From Anaeromonas frigoriresistens (GTDB lineage: Bacteria > Bacillota > Clostridia > Tissierellales > SIT17): DNA of 64,000 nt. The stretch spans positions 248,001 to 312,000 of the forward strand of contig NZ_WSFT01000053.1 of assembly GCF_016820655.1 (NCBI RefSeq), written 5' to 3'. A program made the translations under genes and the position numbers. The notes beneath the pieces are model-generated. The model searched no databases, was not told the origin of the DNA, and saw only the letters and a list, made by a program, of their open reading frames with translations. Below, piece after piece: positions 4,903 through 62,932 of the stretch; the stretch's first letter is position 1; every line of letters starts with the position of its first letter.

Positions 4903-5313
4903 ATGTCTTTTAAAAAGATATTATTAATTTCATTAATTATTTTTATTCTATTAGTTATTATTTCTGGAACTGTATTTGGAATTTTCATGCTAAAAGATGA
5001 TGAAGAAAAGAAATCAGAAGATTATTATTATAATGTAGGACAGATATATAGTAACTTGGATGACTCAAATAGAATTTTAAAACTAAATCTTACGGTATCA
5101 ACAAAAGAGGAAGAATTAATAGAGACTTTTAGTAGTAAATCCTTTTTAATTAAAGATGAATTATATAAAATTTTAAGAAATAAAAAGATAGAAGATATTC
5201 AAGGAAAAGAAGGTCAATTAGAATTAAAAAAAGAAATTATTCTAAATTTGAATAAAATATTCACTACTGATAAGATAAACAACATATACTTTGACGAACT
5301 AATAGTACAATAA
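4903..5313 (+). CDS. fliL: Flagellar basal body-associated protein FliL
   Basis: FliL is a single-pass membrane protein that surrounds or stabilises the stator. Residues 5-30 form a hydrophobic segment. The periplasmic part has the FliL pattern with 'LNLTVST', a central helix 'FLIKDELYKILRNK' and the ending 'INNIYFDELIVQ'. The length of 136 residues is typical. An AAGGAGG site precedes the ATG. The order motB-fliL-fliM supports the call, although primary sequence conservation in this family is low. Confidence 0.87.
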   Translation: MSFKKILLISLIIFILLVIISGTVFGIFMLKDDEEKKSEDYYYNVGQIYSNLDDSNRILKLNLTVSTKEEELIETFSSKSFLIKDELYKILRNKKIEDIQGKEGQLELKKEIILNLNKIFTTDKINNIYFDELIVQ

Positions 5314-5328
5314 AAGGGGGTAGATACC

Positions 5329-6324
5329 TTGTCGGAAGTATTATCCCAAAAGGAAATTGATGCATTATTGAATGCATTAAATACAGGTGAAGTTGATGTT
5401 TCTGAGATGAAGGAAGAAACTTCGGAAAAAAAAGTTAGGAATTATGATTTTAGAAATCCTCAAAAAATAGCAAAGGATCAATTAAGAACTCTAGAAATTA
5501 TTCATGAAAATTTTGGAAGACTATTTCAAACTTTTCTATCAGGTTATTTAAGAGCACCCGTAAAAATGTCAGTTCTTACTGTTGATCAATATGCTTATAG
5601 TGAATTTAGTAATGCAATTGCAAATCCCGCTTTCTTATCAATTATAGATTTTAATCCATTACCTGGAGAAGTTATTATTGATATTTCAACAAATATAGCA
5701 TTTACAATAATAGATAGACTACTAGGTGGAAAAGGGGAAAAAACAGAAGAAAGTAGAAATTTCACAGAAATAGAACAAAATTTATTAAAGAATTTAATCT
5801 CCAAGTCAATCAATTTAATATCTAGAGCTTGGGAAAATGTAATAGAAATTAATCCTTTATTAAAAAAAATTGAAACTAATCCACAATTTGCTCAAATAGT
5901 TTCACCTAACGAGACTATTGCATTGATTACTCTAAGTTTATCAATTGGAAAAGTAGAAGGAATGCTGAACTTTTGTATACCTCATGTAGTATTAGAGCCC
6001 ATTTTAGATAAACTAAGCACTAAATTATGGTTTTCAAGCTCCCAGAGAAAAGGAAATGAAGAAAGTGTTGATCTTATAGAAAATAGACTAAAAACAGCAA
6101 AAGTACTAGTAAAAGCAGAAGTTGGAAAATCTATTTTAAATGTTAAAGAAATACTAGAACTAGCTCAAGGAGATGTAATAGAACTAGATAATTTTGCAGG
6201 GAATAATGCAAGAATAAAAATAGGTTCTAATTTAAAATTCTTTTGTGAACCAGGGAGTATAGGAAATAATGTAGCAGTTAAAATAACATCAGTAAAAAGG
6301 GAGGGTGACGAAGTAGATGAATAG
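5329..6324 (+). CDS. fliM: Flagellar motor switch protein FliM
   Basis: This is a C-ring component that binds CheY-P and sets rotation direction. The N-terminus 'VLSQKEIDALLNAL' is the CheY-P binding peptide. The middle domain has 'RTLEIIHENFGRLFQTFLSGYL' (residues about 47-68) and the GGXG-like 'DRLLGGKGEK', followed by a SpoA/FliN-like C-terminus ('VLVKAEVGKSILNVKEIL', then 'GDVIELDN'). The start is TTG after AAAGGGGG. The length of 331 residues is normal. It overlaps the downstream fliY by 8 bases. Confidence 0.96.
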   Translation: MSEVLSQKEIDALLNALNTGEVDVSEMKEETSEKKVRNYDFRNPQKIAKDQLRTLEIIHENFGRLFQTFLSGYLRAPVKMSVLTVDQYAYSEFSNAIANPAFLSIIDFNPLPGEVIIDISTNIAFTIIDRLLGGKGEKTEESRNFTEIEQNLLKNLISKSINLISRAWENVIEINPLLKKIETNPQFAQIVSPNETIALITLSLSIGKVEGMLNFCIPHVVLEPILDKLSTKLWFSSSQRKGNEESVDLIENRLKTAKVLVKAEVGKSILNVKEILELAQGDVIELDNFAGNNARIKIGSNLKFFCEPGSIGNNVAVKITSVKREGDEVDE

Positions 6325-58168: not shown

Positions 58169-59203
58169 ATGGAAAAGAAAAAAGCTTTAGAAATGGCTAT
58201 TAATCAAATCGAAAAACAATTTGGAAAAGGATCTATTATGATGCTTGGAGAAGAATCTAAATTAAATATTGATTCTATATCCACAGGATCCTTGGAGTTA
58301 GATATTGCTTTAGGTATAGGAGGTCTACCAAGGGGTAGAGTTGTAGAAATATATGGACCTGAGTCTTCTGGTAAAACTACTGTAGCTCTTCATGTTCTTG
58401 CAGAAGCACAGAAAGCTGGAGGATCTGTAGCCTTTGTAGACGCAGAACATGCATTAGACCCATCTTATGCAAGAAAGCTAGGAGTAGATACAGAGAGTTT
58501 AATAGTATCCCAACCAGATACGGGTGAACAAGGGTTGGAAATTGCGGAAGCTTTAGTTAGAAGTGGAGCAATTGATGTAATTGTTGTAGACTCTGTTGCT
58601 GCATTAGTACCCAAAGCGGAGATAGAGGGTGAAATGGGTGACAGCCATGTTGGACTTCAAGCTAGATTAATGTCCCAAGCCCTTAGAAAACTAGCAGGGG
58701 CTATAAAAAAGTCAAATACTATTGCAATTTTTATAAATCAATTGCGAGAAAAAGTTGGTATCATGTTCGGTAACCCTGAAACTACTCCAGGGGGTAGAGC
58801 TCTGAAATTCTATTCTTCTGTTAGATTAGATGTTAGAAGAATAGAAACTTTAAAACAAGGAGATAATATGATAGGAAATAGAACAAGGGTAAAGGTTGTT
58901 AAAAATAAGGTAGCGCCACCATTTAAAAAGGCTGAGTTTGATATTATGTATGGTGAAGGGATATCAAAAGAAGGTAATATCCTTGATGTAGGTGTTACTG
59001 CTGATATTGTAAATAAAGCTGGATCATGGTATAGTTATGGAGATCAAAGATTAGGTCAAGGACGAGAAAATGCAAAAGATTTTCTTAAAGAGAATAAAGA
59101 AGTAGCTAATGAAATAGAAAGAAAAGTAAGAGAATACTATGGTCTTATTTCAAAGGAATCTAACAAAACTGAGGATGATAATAAAAAATCAAAAGATAAA
59201 TAA
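58169..59203 (+). CDS. recA: Recombinase RecA
   Basis: The strand exchange and SOS co-protease protein. Walker A is 'GPESSGKT' (residues 63-70), with '[17 protein letters not shown]', Walker B '[22 protein letters not shown]' (core), loop L2 region '[20 protein letters not shown]' and '[11 protein letters not shown]'. The length is 344 residues. In the leader, AACCC (58145-58149) can pair with GGGTT (58159-58163), covering part of the GGGGG ribosome binding site. This weak hairpin might temper translation. Confidence 0.99.
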
Positions 59204-59301: not shown

Positions 59302-60285
59302 ATGAAAATACTCTATTTTACAGACACCCACATAAGAGGAACAACTCCAAAAAACAGAAAAGATAATTTATTAGAAACTCTTGAGAAAAAATTTAATGAA
59401 ATTGTGGATGTTGTACAATCTCATGATATAGATTATGTTTTAAATGGAGGAGATTTATTTGATAGGCCAGATATTTCACCTTCTATAGTTAGAAAATTTG
59501 CTATGATACTTAATAAGATAAAAGTTCCCATCTATGCTATAGCTGGAAATCACGATATATATGGCCATAATCCAAGTACTCTACATAGAACAATGCTTGG
59601 TTTATTTGATGGTATAGGAATATTGGATCTTATTGATGAGGGAGAAGTAATAACCTTAGATAAGGATAATATTAGAGTGCAAGTAACTGGTAGCCCGTAT
59701 AAGTATGGAATTGACTCAGACACATATAGATCCGCATATATAGTAAATGAAAAACCAGATAATGTTGACTATGCTATACATCTATCCCATGGTATGTTAT
59801 TAGATAAGCCATTTATTAAAGGTGTCCCCTATACTTTAATAGATGACATACTTCATACAAAAGCTGACATTACATTGTGTGGTCATTACCATTCTGGATT
59901 TGGTATAAAAGAATACAATAATAAATACTTTATTAATCCTGGTAGTTTGATAAGAATAACTAACAGTCTAAAAGAAATTAGTAGAATTCCTAGAGTATTG
60001 ATAATAGAGTTAGACAAGAGTATTAAACTGGATTTCTATTATCTTAAATCAGCAGCTCCTGGAGAAGAAATATTAGATAGAAGTATTATTGAAAAGAATA
60101 TGTTCAGAAGCGAGAAAATTATTCAATTTAAGCAGTCTGTGGATTCATCTCAAGATTTTAATAAACTAGATATAAACCATATATTAAATAATCTAACAAA
60201 AGCTGAAGATATTGAAGATGATGTAAAAATCGAAGCTGTAAATAGAATTGAAGAAGCTCAAATAGAATTAGGGGGTGATGATTAA
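59302..60285 (+). CDS. Mre11/SbcD-like metallophosphoesterase
   Basis: A 327-residue calcineurin-type phosphoesterase with all metal motifs: 'DTHIRG' (D8, H10), 'GGDLFDRPD' (D51), 'AGNHDIYG' (N83, H84, D85), 'HLSHGML' (H160/H163) and 'CGHYHSGFG' (H195, H197). The C-terminal ~75 residues are an acidic helical tail that could bind the partner ATPase. With the next genes this makes a nuclease/ATPase pair like SbcD/SbcC or phage T4 gp47/gp46. A GTG at 59293 is in frame, but TTGGAG fits the ATG at 59302. It lies 4 bases before the ATPase gene. Confidence 0.88.
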   Translation: MKILYFTDTHIRGTTPKNRKDNLLETLEKKFNEIVDVVQSHDIDYVLNGGDLFDRPDISPSIVRKFAMILNKIKVPIYAIAGNHDIYGHNPSTLHRTMLGLFDGIGILDLIDEGEVITLDKDNIRVQVTGSPYKYGIDSDTYRSAYIVNEKPDNVDYAIHLSHGMLLDKPFIKGVPYTLIDDILHTKADITLCGHYHSGFGIKEYNNKYFINPGSLIRITNSLKEISRIPRVLIIELDKSIKLDFYYLKSAAPGEEILDRSIIEKNMFRSEKIIQFKQSVDSSQDFNKLDINHILNNLTKAEDIEDDVKIEAVNRIEEAQIELGGDD

Positions 60286-60288
60286 TAA

Positions 60289-61731
60289 ATGAAACATATA
60301 ACTCAAGTAGAGATTAGTAATTTTCAATCCCATAAAAAAACTAAAATTGATTTTGTAAATGGCTTGAATGTAATAGTAGGTCCTTCTGATCAAGGTAAAA
60401 CAGCTATAATAAGGGCTATAAGATGGGTTTTATATAATGAACCTCTAGGTAACTTCTTTATTAGACATGGAGAAAGCGAGGCTAGTGTAGTTTTAACCTT
60501 TAATACTGGTGAAAAAGTTAAAAGGCTTCGCTCAAATAGTAAAAATTTATATATATATATAAATGAAACAGGAGAAGAAGAAATTTATGAGGGTTTTGGA
60601 CTTAGCACTCCAATAGATATAGTAGAAAAGCTTAATATAAGAAAGATACATTTAGATAGCAAAGAATCTAGTTCAATAAATATTGGAGAACAACTAGAAG
60701 GACCTTTTCTTATGGCTCAGAAAAATTCAACAAGAGCAAATGCTATAGGGAGATTAGTAGGAGTACATGTAGTGGATAAAGCAGTACAAAATACAATTAA
60801 AGATACAAGGAGTCTTAATGTAAAGAATAAATCCTTAAAAGACGATATAGATGCCTTAGAATCAAAATTATCACGGTATGAATACTTAGAGTCCTTAGAA
60901 AAGCAAATAGTTACATTAGAAACTATACAACTTGCTATTAATGATAAAGAAAATATATTGTCACAATTAATGAATATAAAAGAGCAAATGAATAACAACA
61001 TAAAAGAAATTAAAAATTATAACGATATTATTTTAAGCTTATCAGAAATTAATACTGTTGAAAATTATATTTCTAATTTAGATGATAACCTGTATAAAAT
61101 TAAATCATTTACAAAATTAAAAGGTAAACTATCAGATGTTAATGATTCGATTGATACAAATCGTAATACATTGAAGAAATTAAAAGAATTAAGTTCTATA
61201 GAATCCTTAACAATTACATTGGAAGAAAAAATAAAAATCAGTCAAAATTTAGTACCTAAACATAGGAAACACACTCTATTAGTCAATGAAATTAAAAGTG
61301 TAAGTAATATAAGTAATAGGCTAGATAATATAAATCATTTAAATAATATATATCAATCAATTGAACATATATCAAAATCTTTGAATAAGTTAACTACCTA
61401 TAATAATAACTTGAACAAAATAATATCTAGTATAAGAAAAGGGAAAGTGTATATAGATAGTTTCGATGATATTAATAAAGTTGAACTTCTGTATAATGAT
61501 ATAGTTAAGAAAGAAGAAAAAATTAACATACTAACCACATTAATTAGAAAATTAAATAAATTAAATACAGAAAAAAACAATACTATATTGTTATATAATA
61601 AAGAGAAATTAAAACAACAAAACCTATTATATGAATATAAAGATTTACTTAAGACAATTGAAAAGTGCCCTCTATGTTTTAATGAGATATCAAATGAAGA
61701 TATGGAGAGAATTGTTAACAATTTAATATAA
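60289..61731 (+). CDS. Rad50/SbcC-like ATPase, N-terminal half with hook CxxC
   Basis: A 480-residue protein with an ABC/SMC N-lobe: 'VEISNFQSHKKTKIDF', Walker A 'GPSDQGKT' (residues 31-38), 'AIRWVLYNEPLGNFFIRHGE' and a Q-loop-like region near 'GEQLEGPFLM'. From about residue 165 it is a long Asn/Lys/Leu/Ile coiled coil, ending with 'KCPLCFNE' (C460, C463), the CxxC of a zinc hook, only 17 residues before the stop. No signature motif or Walker B occurs. It is half of a Rad50-type protein; the matching C-lobe is encoded two genes on. It overlaps nothing, and the next gene has its own AAGGAG site. Confidence 0.85.
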   Translation: MKHITQVEISNFQSHKKTKIDFVNGLNVIVGPSDQGKTAIIRAIRWVLYNEPLGNFFIRHGESEASVVLTFNTGEKVKRLRSNSKNLYIYINETGEEEIYEGFGLSTPIDIVEKLNIRKIHLDSKESSSINIGEQLEGPFLMAQKNSTRANAIGRLVGVHVVDKAVQNTIKDTRSLNVKNKSLKDDIDALESKLSRYEYLESLEKQIVTLETIQLAINDKENILSQLMNIKEQMNNNIKEIKNYNDIILSLSEINTVENYISNLDDNLYKIKSFTKLKGKLSDVNDSIDTNRNTLKKLKELSSIESLTITLEEKIKISQNLVPKHRKHTLLVNEIKSVSNISNRLDNINHLNNIYQSIEHISKSLNKLTTYNNNLNKIISSIRKGKVYIDSFDDINKVELLYNDIVKKEEKINILTTLIRKLNKLNTEKNNTILLYNKEKLKQQNLLYEYKDLLKTIEKCPLCFNEISNEDMERIVNNLI

Positions 61732-61747
61732 GAAAGGAGCTATAATA

Positions 61748-62008
61748 ATGGAAAATCATGAAAAGCAACTATCCCAACTTAAGGATAATTTAGATAGAGC
61801 AAGAAACTTAAAATATAAAGCAGAAGCCCGATTAGAACATTTAAATAAGCAACAAGAAGAATTAATAAGTGAACTGAAAGATTTAGGGGTAAATCCTGAT
61901 GAGTTAGATGATGAAATCAATAAATTAGAAAAAGAGATAACAAACTTATTTAATAAAGCTAACCAATTGCTACCAATGGATATATTAAATGCCCATTCTA
62001 AAGAATGA
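61748..62008 (+). CDS. Small coiled-coil protein between the two Rad50-like halves
   Basis: An 86-residue, highly charged helical protein with heptad-like repeats over residues 3-45 and 50-75, broken at 'LGVNPDELDD'. It has no cysteines and no membrane segment. I do not recognise the family. It has its own site (AAAGGAG) and lies 16 bases after the N-half and 13 bases before the C-half, so it is probably part of the same complex, perhaps supplying part of the descending coil. That is inference. Confidence 0.75.
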   Translation: MENHEKQLSQLKDNLDRARNLKYKAEARLEHLNKQQEELISELKDLGVNPDELDDEINKLEKEITNLFNKANQLLPMDILNAHSKE

Positions 62009-62021
62009 TTGAGGTGATAGT

Positions 62022-62681
62022 ATGGATTCTAAAATAAACGATAAAATAAGCCTCGATAAATATATTAAAATATTGAGAGATATATATTCATCAGAAAATG
62101 GAAAAAAGCAAGCTATAGAAGAAGAATTAAATCTAAAAAAAGATGAAATACAGAGTATAGATAATAGAATTGATATTTTAGAAAAAACTAACATATTATT
62201 ACAAAAAACTAGTGAATATGCAAGAGAACAGGCAAAAAAACAAATAGAAGGATTAGTTACTAATTGTCTACAATATATATTCGATGAAAATATGGAATTC
62301 GAAATAGAAATTCAAGAATTGTATGGAAAACCTAATGCAGAGTTTTATGTAATAACAAAAGGTGAAGAAACAATAAGAACAAAGCCTGAAGATTCAAGGG
62401 GCGGAGGAGTAATAGATATTATATCTTTATCTTTACGAATTGCTTTCTTACAAATACATAAACCTCAAGTCTATGGGCCATTAATATTAGATGAACCTGC
62501 AAAACATGTAAGTGAAGATTATATTTTTAATGTTTCTGAATTTTTAAAACAAGTCTCTGAAATGTTTAATAGACAAATAATAATGGTTACTCATAATAAT
62601 CATCTAGCTTCTATCGCAGATATTGCTTATAGAGTACAATTAAGTGGGATTACTAGTGTAGTAAGCAAAATAGAAGAATAA
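62022..62681 (+). CDS. Rad50/SbcC-like ATPase, C-terminal half
   Basis: A 219-residue protein: a coiled coil at residues about 10-80, then an ABC C-lobe with a signature-like 'DSRGGGVIDIISLSLRIA' (124-141), Walker B 'YGPLILDEPAKHVSED' (Asp157, Glu158) and the His-loop 'IIMVTHNN' (His191). There is no Walker A. Each half alone lacks what the other has, so they should assemble into a working ATPase head. The ATG follows GAGGTGATAGT. It is the last gene before the rny leader. Confidence 0.86.
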   Translation: MDSKINDKISLDKYIKILRDIYSSENGKKQAIEEELNLKKDEIQSIDNRIDILEKTNILLQKTSEYAREQAKKQIEGLVTNCLQYIFDENMEFEIEIQELYGKPNAEFYVITKGEETIRTKPEDSRGGGVIDIISLSLRIAFLQIHKPQVYGPLILDEPAKHVSEDYIFNVSEFLKQVSEMFNRQIIMVTHNNHLASIADIAYRVQLSGITSVVSKIEE

Positions 62682-62860: not shown

Positions 62861-62932
62861 GATTTATTTAAATAATCCATTAATAAAAACGAAACGAAAC
62901 TTGAAAAATTAATAGTAAAGGAGGTGCTTCCA

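Follow-up and report, generated by a model that had tools for sequence, protein, structure and literature searches.

A Mre11-Rad50-type locus of Anaeromonas frigoriresistens and its relatives, with the Rad50 chain probably divided over three polypeptides

The stretch of Anaeromonas frigoriresistens DNA analysed here (64,000 nucleotides of contig NZ_WSFT01000053.1, positions 248,001 to 312,000; hereafter the window) belongs to a 3.2 Mb genome which is 99% complete, and was examined between 54.9 and 64 kb. Reading of its open reading frames (ORFs) shows four genes on the forward strand between recA (58169-59203) and rny (starting at 62924), both assigned from sequence: a Mre11/SbcD-like metallophosphoesterase (MPE, 59302-60285), a Rad50 N-terminal head half followed by an arm and a C-terminal hook (RN, 60289-61731), a small coiled-coil subunit (SC, 61748-62008) and a Rad50 C-terminal head half (RC, 62022-62681). 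The gaps between them are 3, 16 and 13 bases, ribosome-binding-site-like stretches precede SC and RC, and each of RN, SC and RC is read in a frame of its own. This agrees with an original prediction, made from the sequence alone, which had taken the gaps of 16 and 13 bases and the separate ribosome-binding sites as signs that the split is not due to a single frameshift. The same prediction spoke of a Rad50 in two genes; there are three, since the conserved SC gene of 86 amino acids had been overlooked. Nor did it mention the repeat structure of the arm, relatives in phages or the rarity of classic SbcCD markers, which are described below.

MPE encodes a protein of 327 amino acids from its ATG, or 330 from an alternative upstream GTG. 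It matches Pfam Metallophos (1.5e-15), the SbcD-like phrog_100 (7e-14) and Mre11 structures (1ii7, 1.1e-6), and the metal-binding motifs DTH, GGDLFD, GNHD, SHG and GHYH were recognised by eye, as expected from the earlier description of a phosphoesterase with all Mre11 metal motifs. The curated SbcD model TIGR00619 gives 35.7 bits and its cut-off of 77.65 is not reached.

Conservation of the ATPase halves was read from alignments A4 for RN (79 rows, made up of the window protein and 78 of the 84 non-redundant candidates, locus L108 being among the six omitted) and A5 for RC (88 of 102 candidates plus the window, 89 rows); a further alignment, A6, holds 53 of 90 candidates plus the window. RN has 480 amino acids. 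The profile of its family matches the heads of Rad50 (5f3w, 4.3e-16) and, at its end, the solved Rad50 hook domains 6zff (profile positions 410-479, 3.2e-5) and 1l8d (positions 415-479, 4.9e-5). Nearly the full length is matched by phrog_16465 (2e-64), and Foldseek places the RN model on Rad50 N-lobes (1f2u_A, template modelling score, TM, 0.57). The Walker A motif GPSDQGKT occupies residues 31-38 (60379-60402), with G31, G36 and K37 invariant in A4; Q135, which we assign to the Q-loop, is invariant as well, and so are C460, P461 and C463 of the CPLC motif (residues 460-463, 61666-61677). The protein thus ends 17 residues after its CxxC, as had been noted before. Among 119 RN-bearing ORFs of at least 300 amino acids, 117 carry CPxC at 5-26 residues from the C-terminus, the two exceptions (L108 and L125) being short. 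On hook-structure matches and conservation the CxxC of RN is a putative zinc hook.

RC has 219 amino acids and begins with a predicted N-terminal helix of 86 residues. Its profile matches Rad50 C-terminal halves (3aux, 1.4e-13; 3qkr_B, 6e-13; 1ii8_B, 2e-12), the protein matches phrog_15167 (1.4e-62), and Foldseek aligns its model with Rad50 C-lobes (1f2u_B, TM 0.81 by target length) and with the closed Mre11-Rad50 of P. furiosus (9a9j_B, TM 0.73). Walker B is LILDEP (residues 154-159, 62481-62498), in which D157 and E158 are invariant in A5; it is followed by the stretch AKHVS, whose K161 and S164 are found in at least 90% of the rows, and by a THN motif with the His-loop histidine H191 (62592-62594), also present in at least 90%. 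The signature position, located by A5 and by structure-profile alignment, is a variant RGGG (residues 126-129, 62397-62408). The earlier claim of a separate protein with signature motif, Walker B and His-loop therefore stands for the last two and has to be modified for the first, which is not canonical. ATP hydrolysis by heads made of RN and RC is plausible, because Walker A, a conserved Gln, the Walker B Asp-Glu pair and the His-loop are all kept.

SC is a coiled coil by its sequence, with a conserved turn of its own, LG[VI]xPExL, and it matches phrog_18563 (1.3e-10). Its Pfam match to the Gam/Gp157 domain is weak (0.031, and 0.07 in the search of its own genome), and this assignment was set aside. 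Comparison with solved structures returned designed repeat proteins and coils, matches which we judged meaningless.

The RC family was searched in 291 genomes of the class and found in 21, including the window's own genome and 10 of the 12 other genomes of its order; within the phylum it is present in 66 of 398 genomes. Fifteen of the 20 other class genomes with RC have MPE, RN and RC together, SC was found by BLAST in 14 of these, and a match to recA or rny is present in the stretch of 14. MPE of one locus (L030) is cut by the contig end. The remaining five genomes carry RC alone, after a folD-like gene (by eye) and before rny, and all five have MPE-RN-SC elsewhere in the genome. Two of them are single contigs, with RC at 1.62 Mb and RN at 2.73 Mb in G222 (1.1 Mb apart), and at 1.64 and 1.97 Mb in G278 (0.3 Mb apart); the other three have RC and RN on different contigs.

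A scan of named genomes gave at least 275 chromosomal relatives, and the following counts refer to the best 80 loci, called with bit-score thresholds of our choice (60 for MPE, RN and RC, 40 for SC). These belong to Tissierella and kin, Peptoniphilus, Caloramator, Tepidanaerobacter, Thermosediminibacter, Natroniella, Halanaerobacter, Halalkalibacter, Acetivibrio and others. The order MPE-RN-SC-RC is found in 60, RN-SC-RC in three, a gene in two pieces in four, and RC alone in 13. A short gene occurs in five of the 60 four-gene loci: L068 and L117 (in both, MPE at the contig start), L108, L111 and L125. The position between recA and rny, given by the original prediction for the window, is common among relatives, with both genes in the fetched stretch for 55 of the 67 loci with RN. 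In Caloramator sp. mosi_1 (L100) a shortened MPE stands in the same stretch as a recA and an RN that are both broken in two, which looks like an assembly error and not like gene loss.

The viral relatives number 65 loci and were obtained with an alignment as query, an earlier scan of viral contigs with the single RC protein having given none. Thirty-eight are arranged RN-SC-RC-MPE, 10 RN-MPE-RC, two have MPE and RN fused, eight show other patterns and seven are below all thresholds. Ten viral loci that are divergent or lack SC were inspected, and in all ten an SC-like ORF of about 80-130 residues with a coil-turn-coil pattern was seen upstream of RC, adjoining it in seven; these ORFs were judged by eye and carry no hidden Markov model score. 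Bacillus phage vB_BboS-125 (L027) encodes the split proteins close together as gp32, gp34 and gp35. Between its RN and SC lies a gene annotated with an AP2 domain (5125-5697), perhaps a homing element.

A continuous gene at this locus in relatives, which would have indicated a local split or a sequencing error in the window, was looked for: no ORF joining RN, SC or RC above threshold exists among the best 80 chromosomal or the 65 viral loci. The co-occurrence of the genes in relatives, a check proposed with the original prediction, is borne out by the four-gene order in 60 of the 80, which rules out sequencing error or local fission.

Some relatives do join other parts. In one family (3 of the 66 RC-bearing genomes of the phylum) a single ORF of 684-700 residues unites MPE, the RN head and RC, with neither coil, nor CPxC, nor SC, and no match to recA or rny was found in the 13.5 kb fetched around it. 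A quick tree of MPE, RN head and RC was built from 84 rows (146 assembled loci reduced to 102 non-redundant ones, of which 18 were dropped; nine broken or very divergent ids had been excluded before) and rooted at the midpoint, the long viral branches being unsure. On this tree the fusion sits among split chromosomal members without a recA/rny match, within nested forks with Shimodaira-Hasegawa-like approximate likelihood ratio (SH-aLRT) values of 93, 88, 92 and 95. Because it is nested inside the split group, it is probably derived rather than the parent of a local split. Two viral contigs carry fusions of MPE and RN with RC as a separate gene, L134 (2534-4843, 769 amino acids) and L136 (3249-5372, 707 amino acids). 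Six of the seven viral loci below all thresholds also have long ORFs. On three distant viral contigs (L188-L190) ORFs of 716-747 amino acids with weak matches to both RN and RC (20-28 bits) are, by the look, one-chain Rad50-like proteins, and L191-L193 have ORFs of 960-1053 amino acids with a weak RC match.

The coil-less fusion argues for joint action of MPE, the RN head and RC, and for SC as a component of the coil. It is one of the reasons why we think it very unlikely that RC and RN share no head and act separately or with other SMC-like partners. That RC is encoded alone and far from RN in some genomes would fit such separate action, yet RN was found in all five of the genomes of RC-alone type in which it was searched for elsewhere, and neither half alone has all the ATPase motifs.

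Taken together, MPE, RN, SC and RC probably form one Mre11-Rad50 complex of the SbcCD type whose Rad50 chain is spread over three polypeptides. Two composite ATP-binding cassette heads would form in trans, each from the N-lobe of RN (Walker A, Q-loop) and the C-lobe of RC (RGGG, Walker B, His-loop), and would rest on MPE, acting as a nuclease dimer. The outgoing arm, of about six 47-residue coiled-coil modules, would be carried entirely by RN to the CPxC hook at the very C-terminus of that protein, while the strand opposite, both close to the head and along the rod, would come from SC and from the long helix with which RC begins. Closure of the heads, driven by ATP, may control nuclease cutting at DNA ends that are broken, blocked or folded into hairpins, and the complex may replace the classic SbcCD as DNA-end processor. 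The parts and their homology, the conserved cut at the hook, the unlinked halves, the coil-less fusion and the repeats are seen in the sequences and their comparison; assembly, stoichiometry, nuclease activity and biological role we infer. The distinct split-Rad50 complex for repair or genome maintenance that was originally proposed is largely supported by the relatives, in which a conserved split Rad50 accompanies a Mre11-like nuclease.

The arm of RN is built of tandem 47-residue modules (residues 173-459, 60805-61665), four of them clear and two diverged. Measured from the head end to the first Cys of the hook, it has 287 residues in the window, near the roughly 295 estimated earlier, a figure which is corrected here. 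This measure requires CPxC and could be taken in 146 of 157 sequences, 119 of them non-redundant. Of these 119 arms, 107 lie within three residues of 241 (13 arms), 288 (88) or 335 (6), in steps of 47; the other 12 measure 183-194 (seven arms), 127, 228, 249, 292 and 339. Among 130 lags in a profile made from 60 equally long arms, 47, 94 and 141 score highest (z 3.2, 2.8 and 2.4), and lags 46 and 48 are below the mean. Lag 47 also ranks first in 84 chromosomal, 12 short chromosomal, 36 viral and 6 long viral arms and in the window RN taken alone; it is not on top in seven short viral arms of less than 200 residues (z 0.9). Twenty classic SbcC from this class of bacteria show no such repeat, either in the outgoing (z -0.8) or in the returning arm (z 1.2).

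Modules 2-5 of RN resemble each other (mean BLOSUM62 score 0.31-0.54 per residue) and the first and last are diverged; neighbouring modules average 0.26 in register and -0.61 off register. Locally the sequence has a period of 3.5, interrupted by breaks in register; in this heptad pattern a module corresponds to heptads with two one-residue shifts, and by eye 47 is best taken as seven heptads minus two residues. A straight helix with 13 turns per 47 residues is ruled out by this period and by the breaks. The AlphaFold model of RN breaks its helix at 298-303, 346-347 and 392-394, spaced 46-47, and once more at 196-197, off this grid. Restricted length alone is not new, since Walker A-to-Cys distances of classic SbcC also cluster (431-435, 474-492 and 541-558 in 19 of 20) and SMC arm lengths are described as restricted, multimodal and periodic in the portion of that study used here, whose authors think that this probably extends to Rad50 (PMC5344682). 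The new element is the exact 47-residue sequence module.

With regard to the role, the window's own genome has no SbcC over the cut-off of TIGR00618 and no match to SbcC_Walker_B or SbcD_C. SbcD_C is found in 1 of the 21 class genomes with split RC and in 82 of the 270 without (Fisher p 0.011), and SbcC_Walker_B over its cut-off in 2 of 21 and 133 of 270 (Fisher p 0.0004), shared ancestry being ignored in both tests. The two split genomes positive for SbcC_Walker_B are G227 and G086, the latter with an ORF of 1397 residues which by its size may belong to another family. The proposed search for a separate intact sbcCD in relatives thus gave scarce markers in the split genomes and both systems in G227. 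Scarcity of classic markers and the recA neighbourhood point to a replacement, and the split complex is likely to stand in for SbcCD.

These data also bear on whether the genes are a phage-derived recombination module or an anti-phage defence module instead of housekeeping repair. They are encoded on many viral contigs and in nine plasmid records, and the best PADLOC matches of RN are ABC ATPases such as LmuB and GajA, whose profiles are covered in part only; RN gave no full-length match to a PADLOC defence family, partner genes not being included in the search. We regard this origin or function as improbable, given the chromosomal place between recA and rny in most loci with RN, the scarcity of classic SbcCD markers in genomes with the split system, and a tree that places one main clade of viral sequences among the chromosomal ones and leaves divergent viral rows outside, the root being set by midpoint and not inferred.

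Several observations weigh against one SbcCD-type complex, or against its standing in for SbcCD. The RC signature reads RGGG[VI][VI]D, in which Gly takes the place of the SGG serine of the aligned Rad50s, and the LSGGE/Q form is absent. For both the RN and the RC model the first Foldseek match by E-value is the B. subtilis SMC head, a single-sequence phmmer search with RN ranks SMC (5h66_A) first, and the single-chain model of RN has a predicted TM score (pTM) of 0.32, with a predicted local distance difference test (pLDDT) below 50 for residues 122-145. At an E-value of 0.001 SbcC_Walker_B matches 6 of the 21 split genomes against 155 of 270, and the markers miss controls, SbcD_C being detected in 4, TIGR00618 in 1 and SbcC_Walker_B in 12 of 14 control genomes. 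G227 carries the split operon together with a classic SbcD/SbcC pair (394 and 921 amino acids), and G245, of the window's order, lacks the split RC as well as any classic marker above its cut-off. In one genome (G093, locus L034) only 87 bases (6218-6304) separate RN from RC and no SC is recognisable; SC seems deleted there, because the congeners L036 and L038 carry it. Finally, the lengths of SC and of the RC coil do not follow that of the arm (Spearman -0.13, n=135, and 0.04, n=131): over arm-length classes of 2, 9, 15, 101 and 19 loci (redundant set) the class medians of SC stay between 77 and 86.5.

Since the lengths of SC and RC are independent of the arm, the facing strand cannot match it one-to-one throughout the family. 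One SC per arm cannot fully face every arm; several copies of SC, pairing of RN with RN, or bare helix may account for the rest. In the window 459 residues (about 460) lead to the hook and 326 follow it (21, 86 and 219, in three chains), in line with the unequal coil arms claimed before; classic SbcC halves are near equal, for example 466 and 453 residues (Cys 466 of 918), with CxxC near the middle in 20 controls.

Three views of the rod have to be weighed with these lengths. The split could be a neutral fission of an ordinary SbcC, without consequence, whose pieces re-form the single-chain geometry, SC being what is left of the returning coil. The Walker A-to-hook distance of the commonest class (428-430) does match that of short classic SbcC (431-435), and the long helix on RC and the coiled-coil sequence of SC are as this view would have them; we nevertheless consider it unlikely, as the return side is short by about 130 residues, longer arms are not matched by a longer SC or RC, the 47-residue repeat is absent from the classic SbcC compared and SC has its own conserved turn. 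Alternatively, two RN arms may pair in parallel, with one zinc hook zipping the tip and with SC and RC stabilising the base only. Such homotypic pairing would allow RN to vary by whole modules at no cost while SC and RC stay constant, and the local heptad pattern along the arm is consistent with it. That SC is lost together with the coil and otherwise mostly kept suggests a larger role for it, and this arrangement is somewhat doubtful. As a tentative extension of the four-protein complex, possible though not the expected outcome, the arm may be modular and adjustable: the number of modules would evolve by whole units, and the facing strand would consist of several SC, one per module or pair of modules, or of a second RN. 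If true, arm length could be changed without altering the rest of the complex, and the coil-less fusions would be the zero-module end.

In comparison to SbcCD and Mre11-Rad50, the system is alike in its Mre11-type nuclease, Rad50 N- and C-terminal head halves, long arm and CPxC hook. It differs in having three chains instead of one, the hook at a C-terminus, RGGG, unequal strands, 47-residue modules and the extra SC, and in staying below the curated SbcC and SbcD cut-offs. Because it lacks a single chain, matched strands and a canonical signature, we do not class it as an ordinary Mre11-Rad50. The known SbcCD complex acts on hairpins and blocked ends, according to the part of PMC6265447 used, and we infer that the four-gene system probably works like Mre11-Rad50. 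The crystal structures of P. furiosus Rad50 also consist of two chains (1ii8, 1f2t/1f2u, 3qkr), RN matching chain A and RC chain B. That division was reportedly made in the laboratory; here the split is natural, lies at the hook and leaves the whole arm on one chain.

The same three proteins are represented in PHROGs, with matches over nearly their full length, as three separate families, phrog_16465 (exonuclease), phrog_18563 (unknown) and phrog_15167 (ATPase), whose entries do not state one split Rad50, a role of SC or the repeats. A Mre11/Rad50 fusion of Bacillus phage 0305phi8-36 is described as lacking one NTPase segment, and the section of that paper drawn on gives no explanation (PMC3175470); on viral contig L134 (218,948 bp) such an MPE-RN fusion is followed downstream by SC and RC. 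In the sections of PMC5344682 used, the period of SMC arms is tied to the superhelix, no 47-residue sequence repeat is described, and sequences with one strand shorter than 75% of the other were discarded. The archaea-specific SMC-related proteins (ASRP) are SMC-related ATPases with a zinc hook as well, but consist of one chain in the part of PMC9389158 consulted; their model NF045487 matches RN at 50 bits, with a cut-off of 300 bits. A treatment of SbcC and SbcD of jumbo phages makes no mention of a split Rad50 in its available part (PMC7824862), and no description of a split or multi-chain Rad50 or SbcC was recognised in the open-access literature, to which the search was limited, subscription papers lying outside its scope.

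How hook and head communicate through the Rad50 coil, and what periodic arm elements do, is called an open question in the same SMC study, as far as consulted (PMC5344682). The arms of about three to seven modules by length, with one family without arm or hook, offer a natural series for it, and with the head halves and the coil protein on separate genes, each can be exchanged, mutated or varied in dose by itself. The system is a likely substitute for SbcCD in Tissierellia and other Bacillota, and G227 represents a natural test of redundancy between the split and the classic system. The analysis explains half-ATPases that records of phages and plasmids annotate as exonuclease, ATPase or hypothetical protein, suggests why the Bacillus phage fusion lacks an NTPase half, and describes a design common to many bacteria and phages.

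Two minor observations concern further copies of RC. The nine plasmid records with RC relatives, mostly annotated as "hypothetical", are from Paenibacillus, Alkaliphilus, Geobacillus, Brevibacillus and others. Four genomes (G358, G396, G370 and G576) have two RC matches each; the second RC of G358, G396 and G576 is perhaps a prophage copy beside the chromosomal one, and the pair of G370 is partial and located on different contigs.

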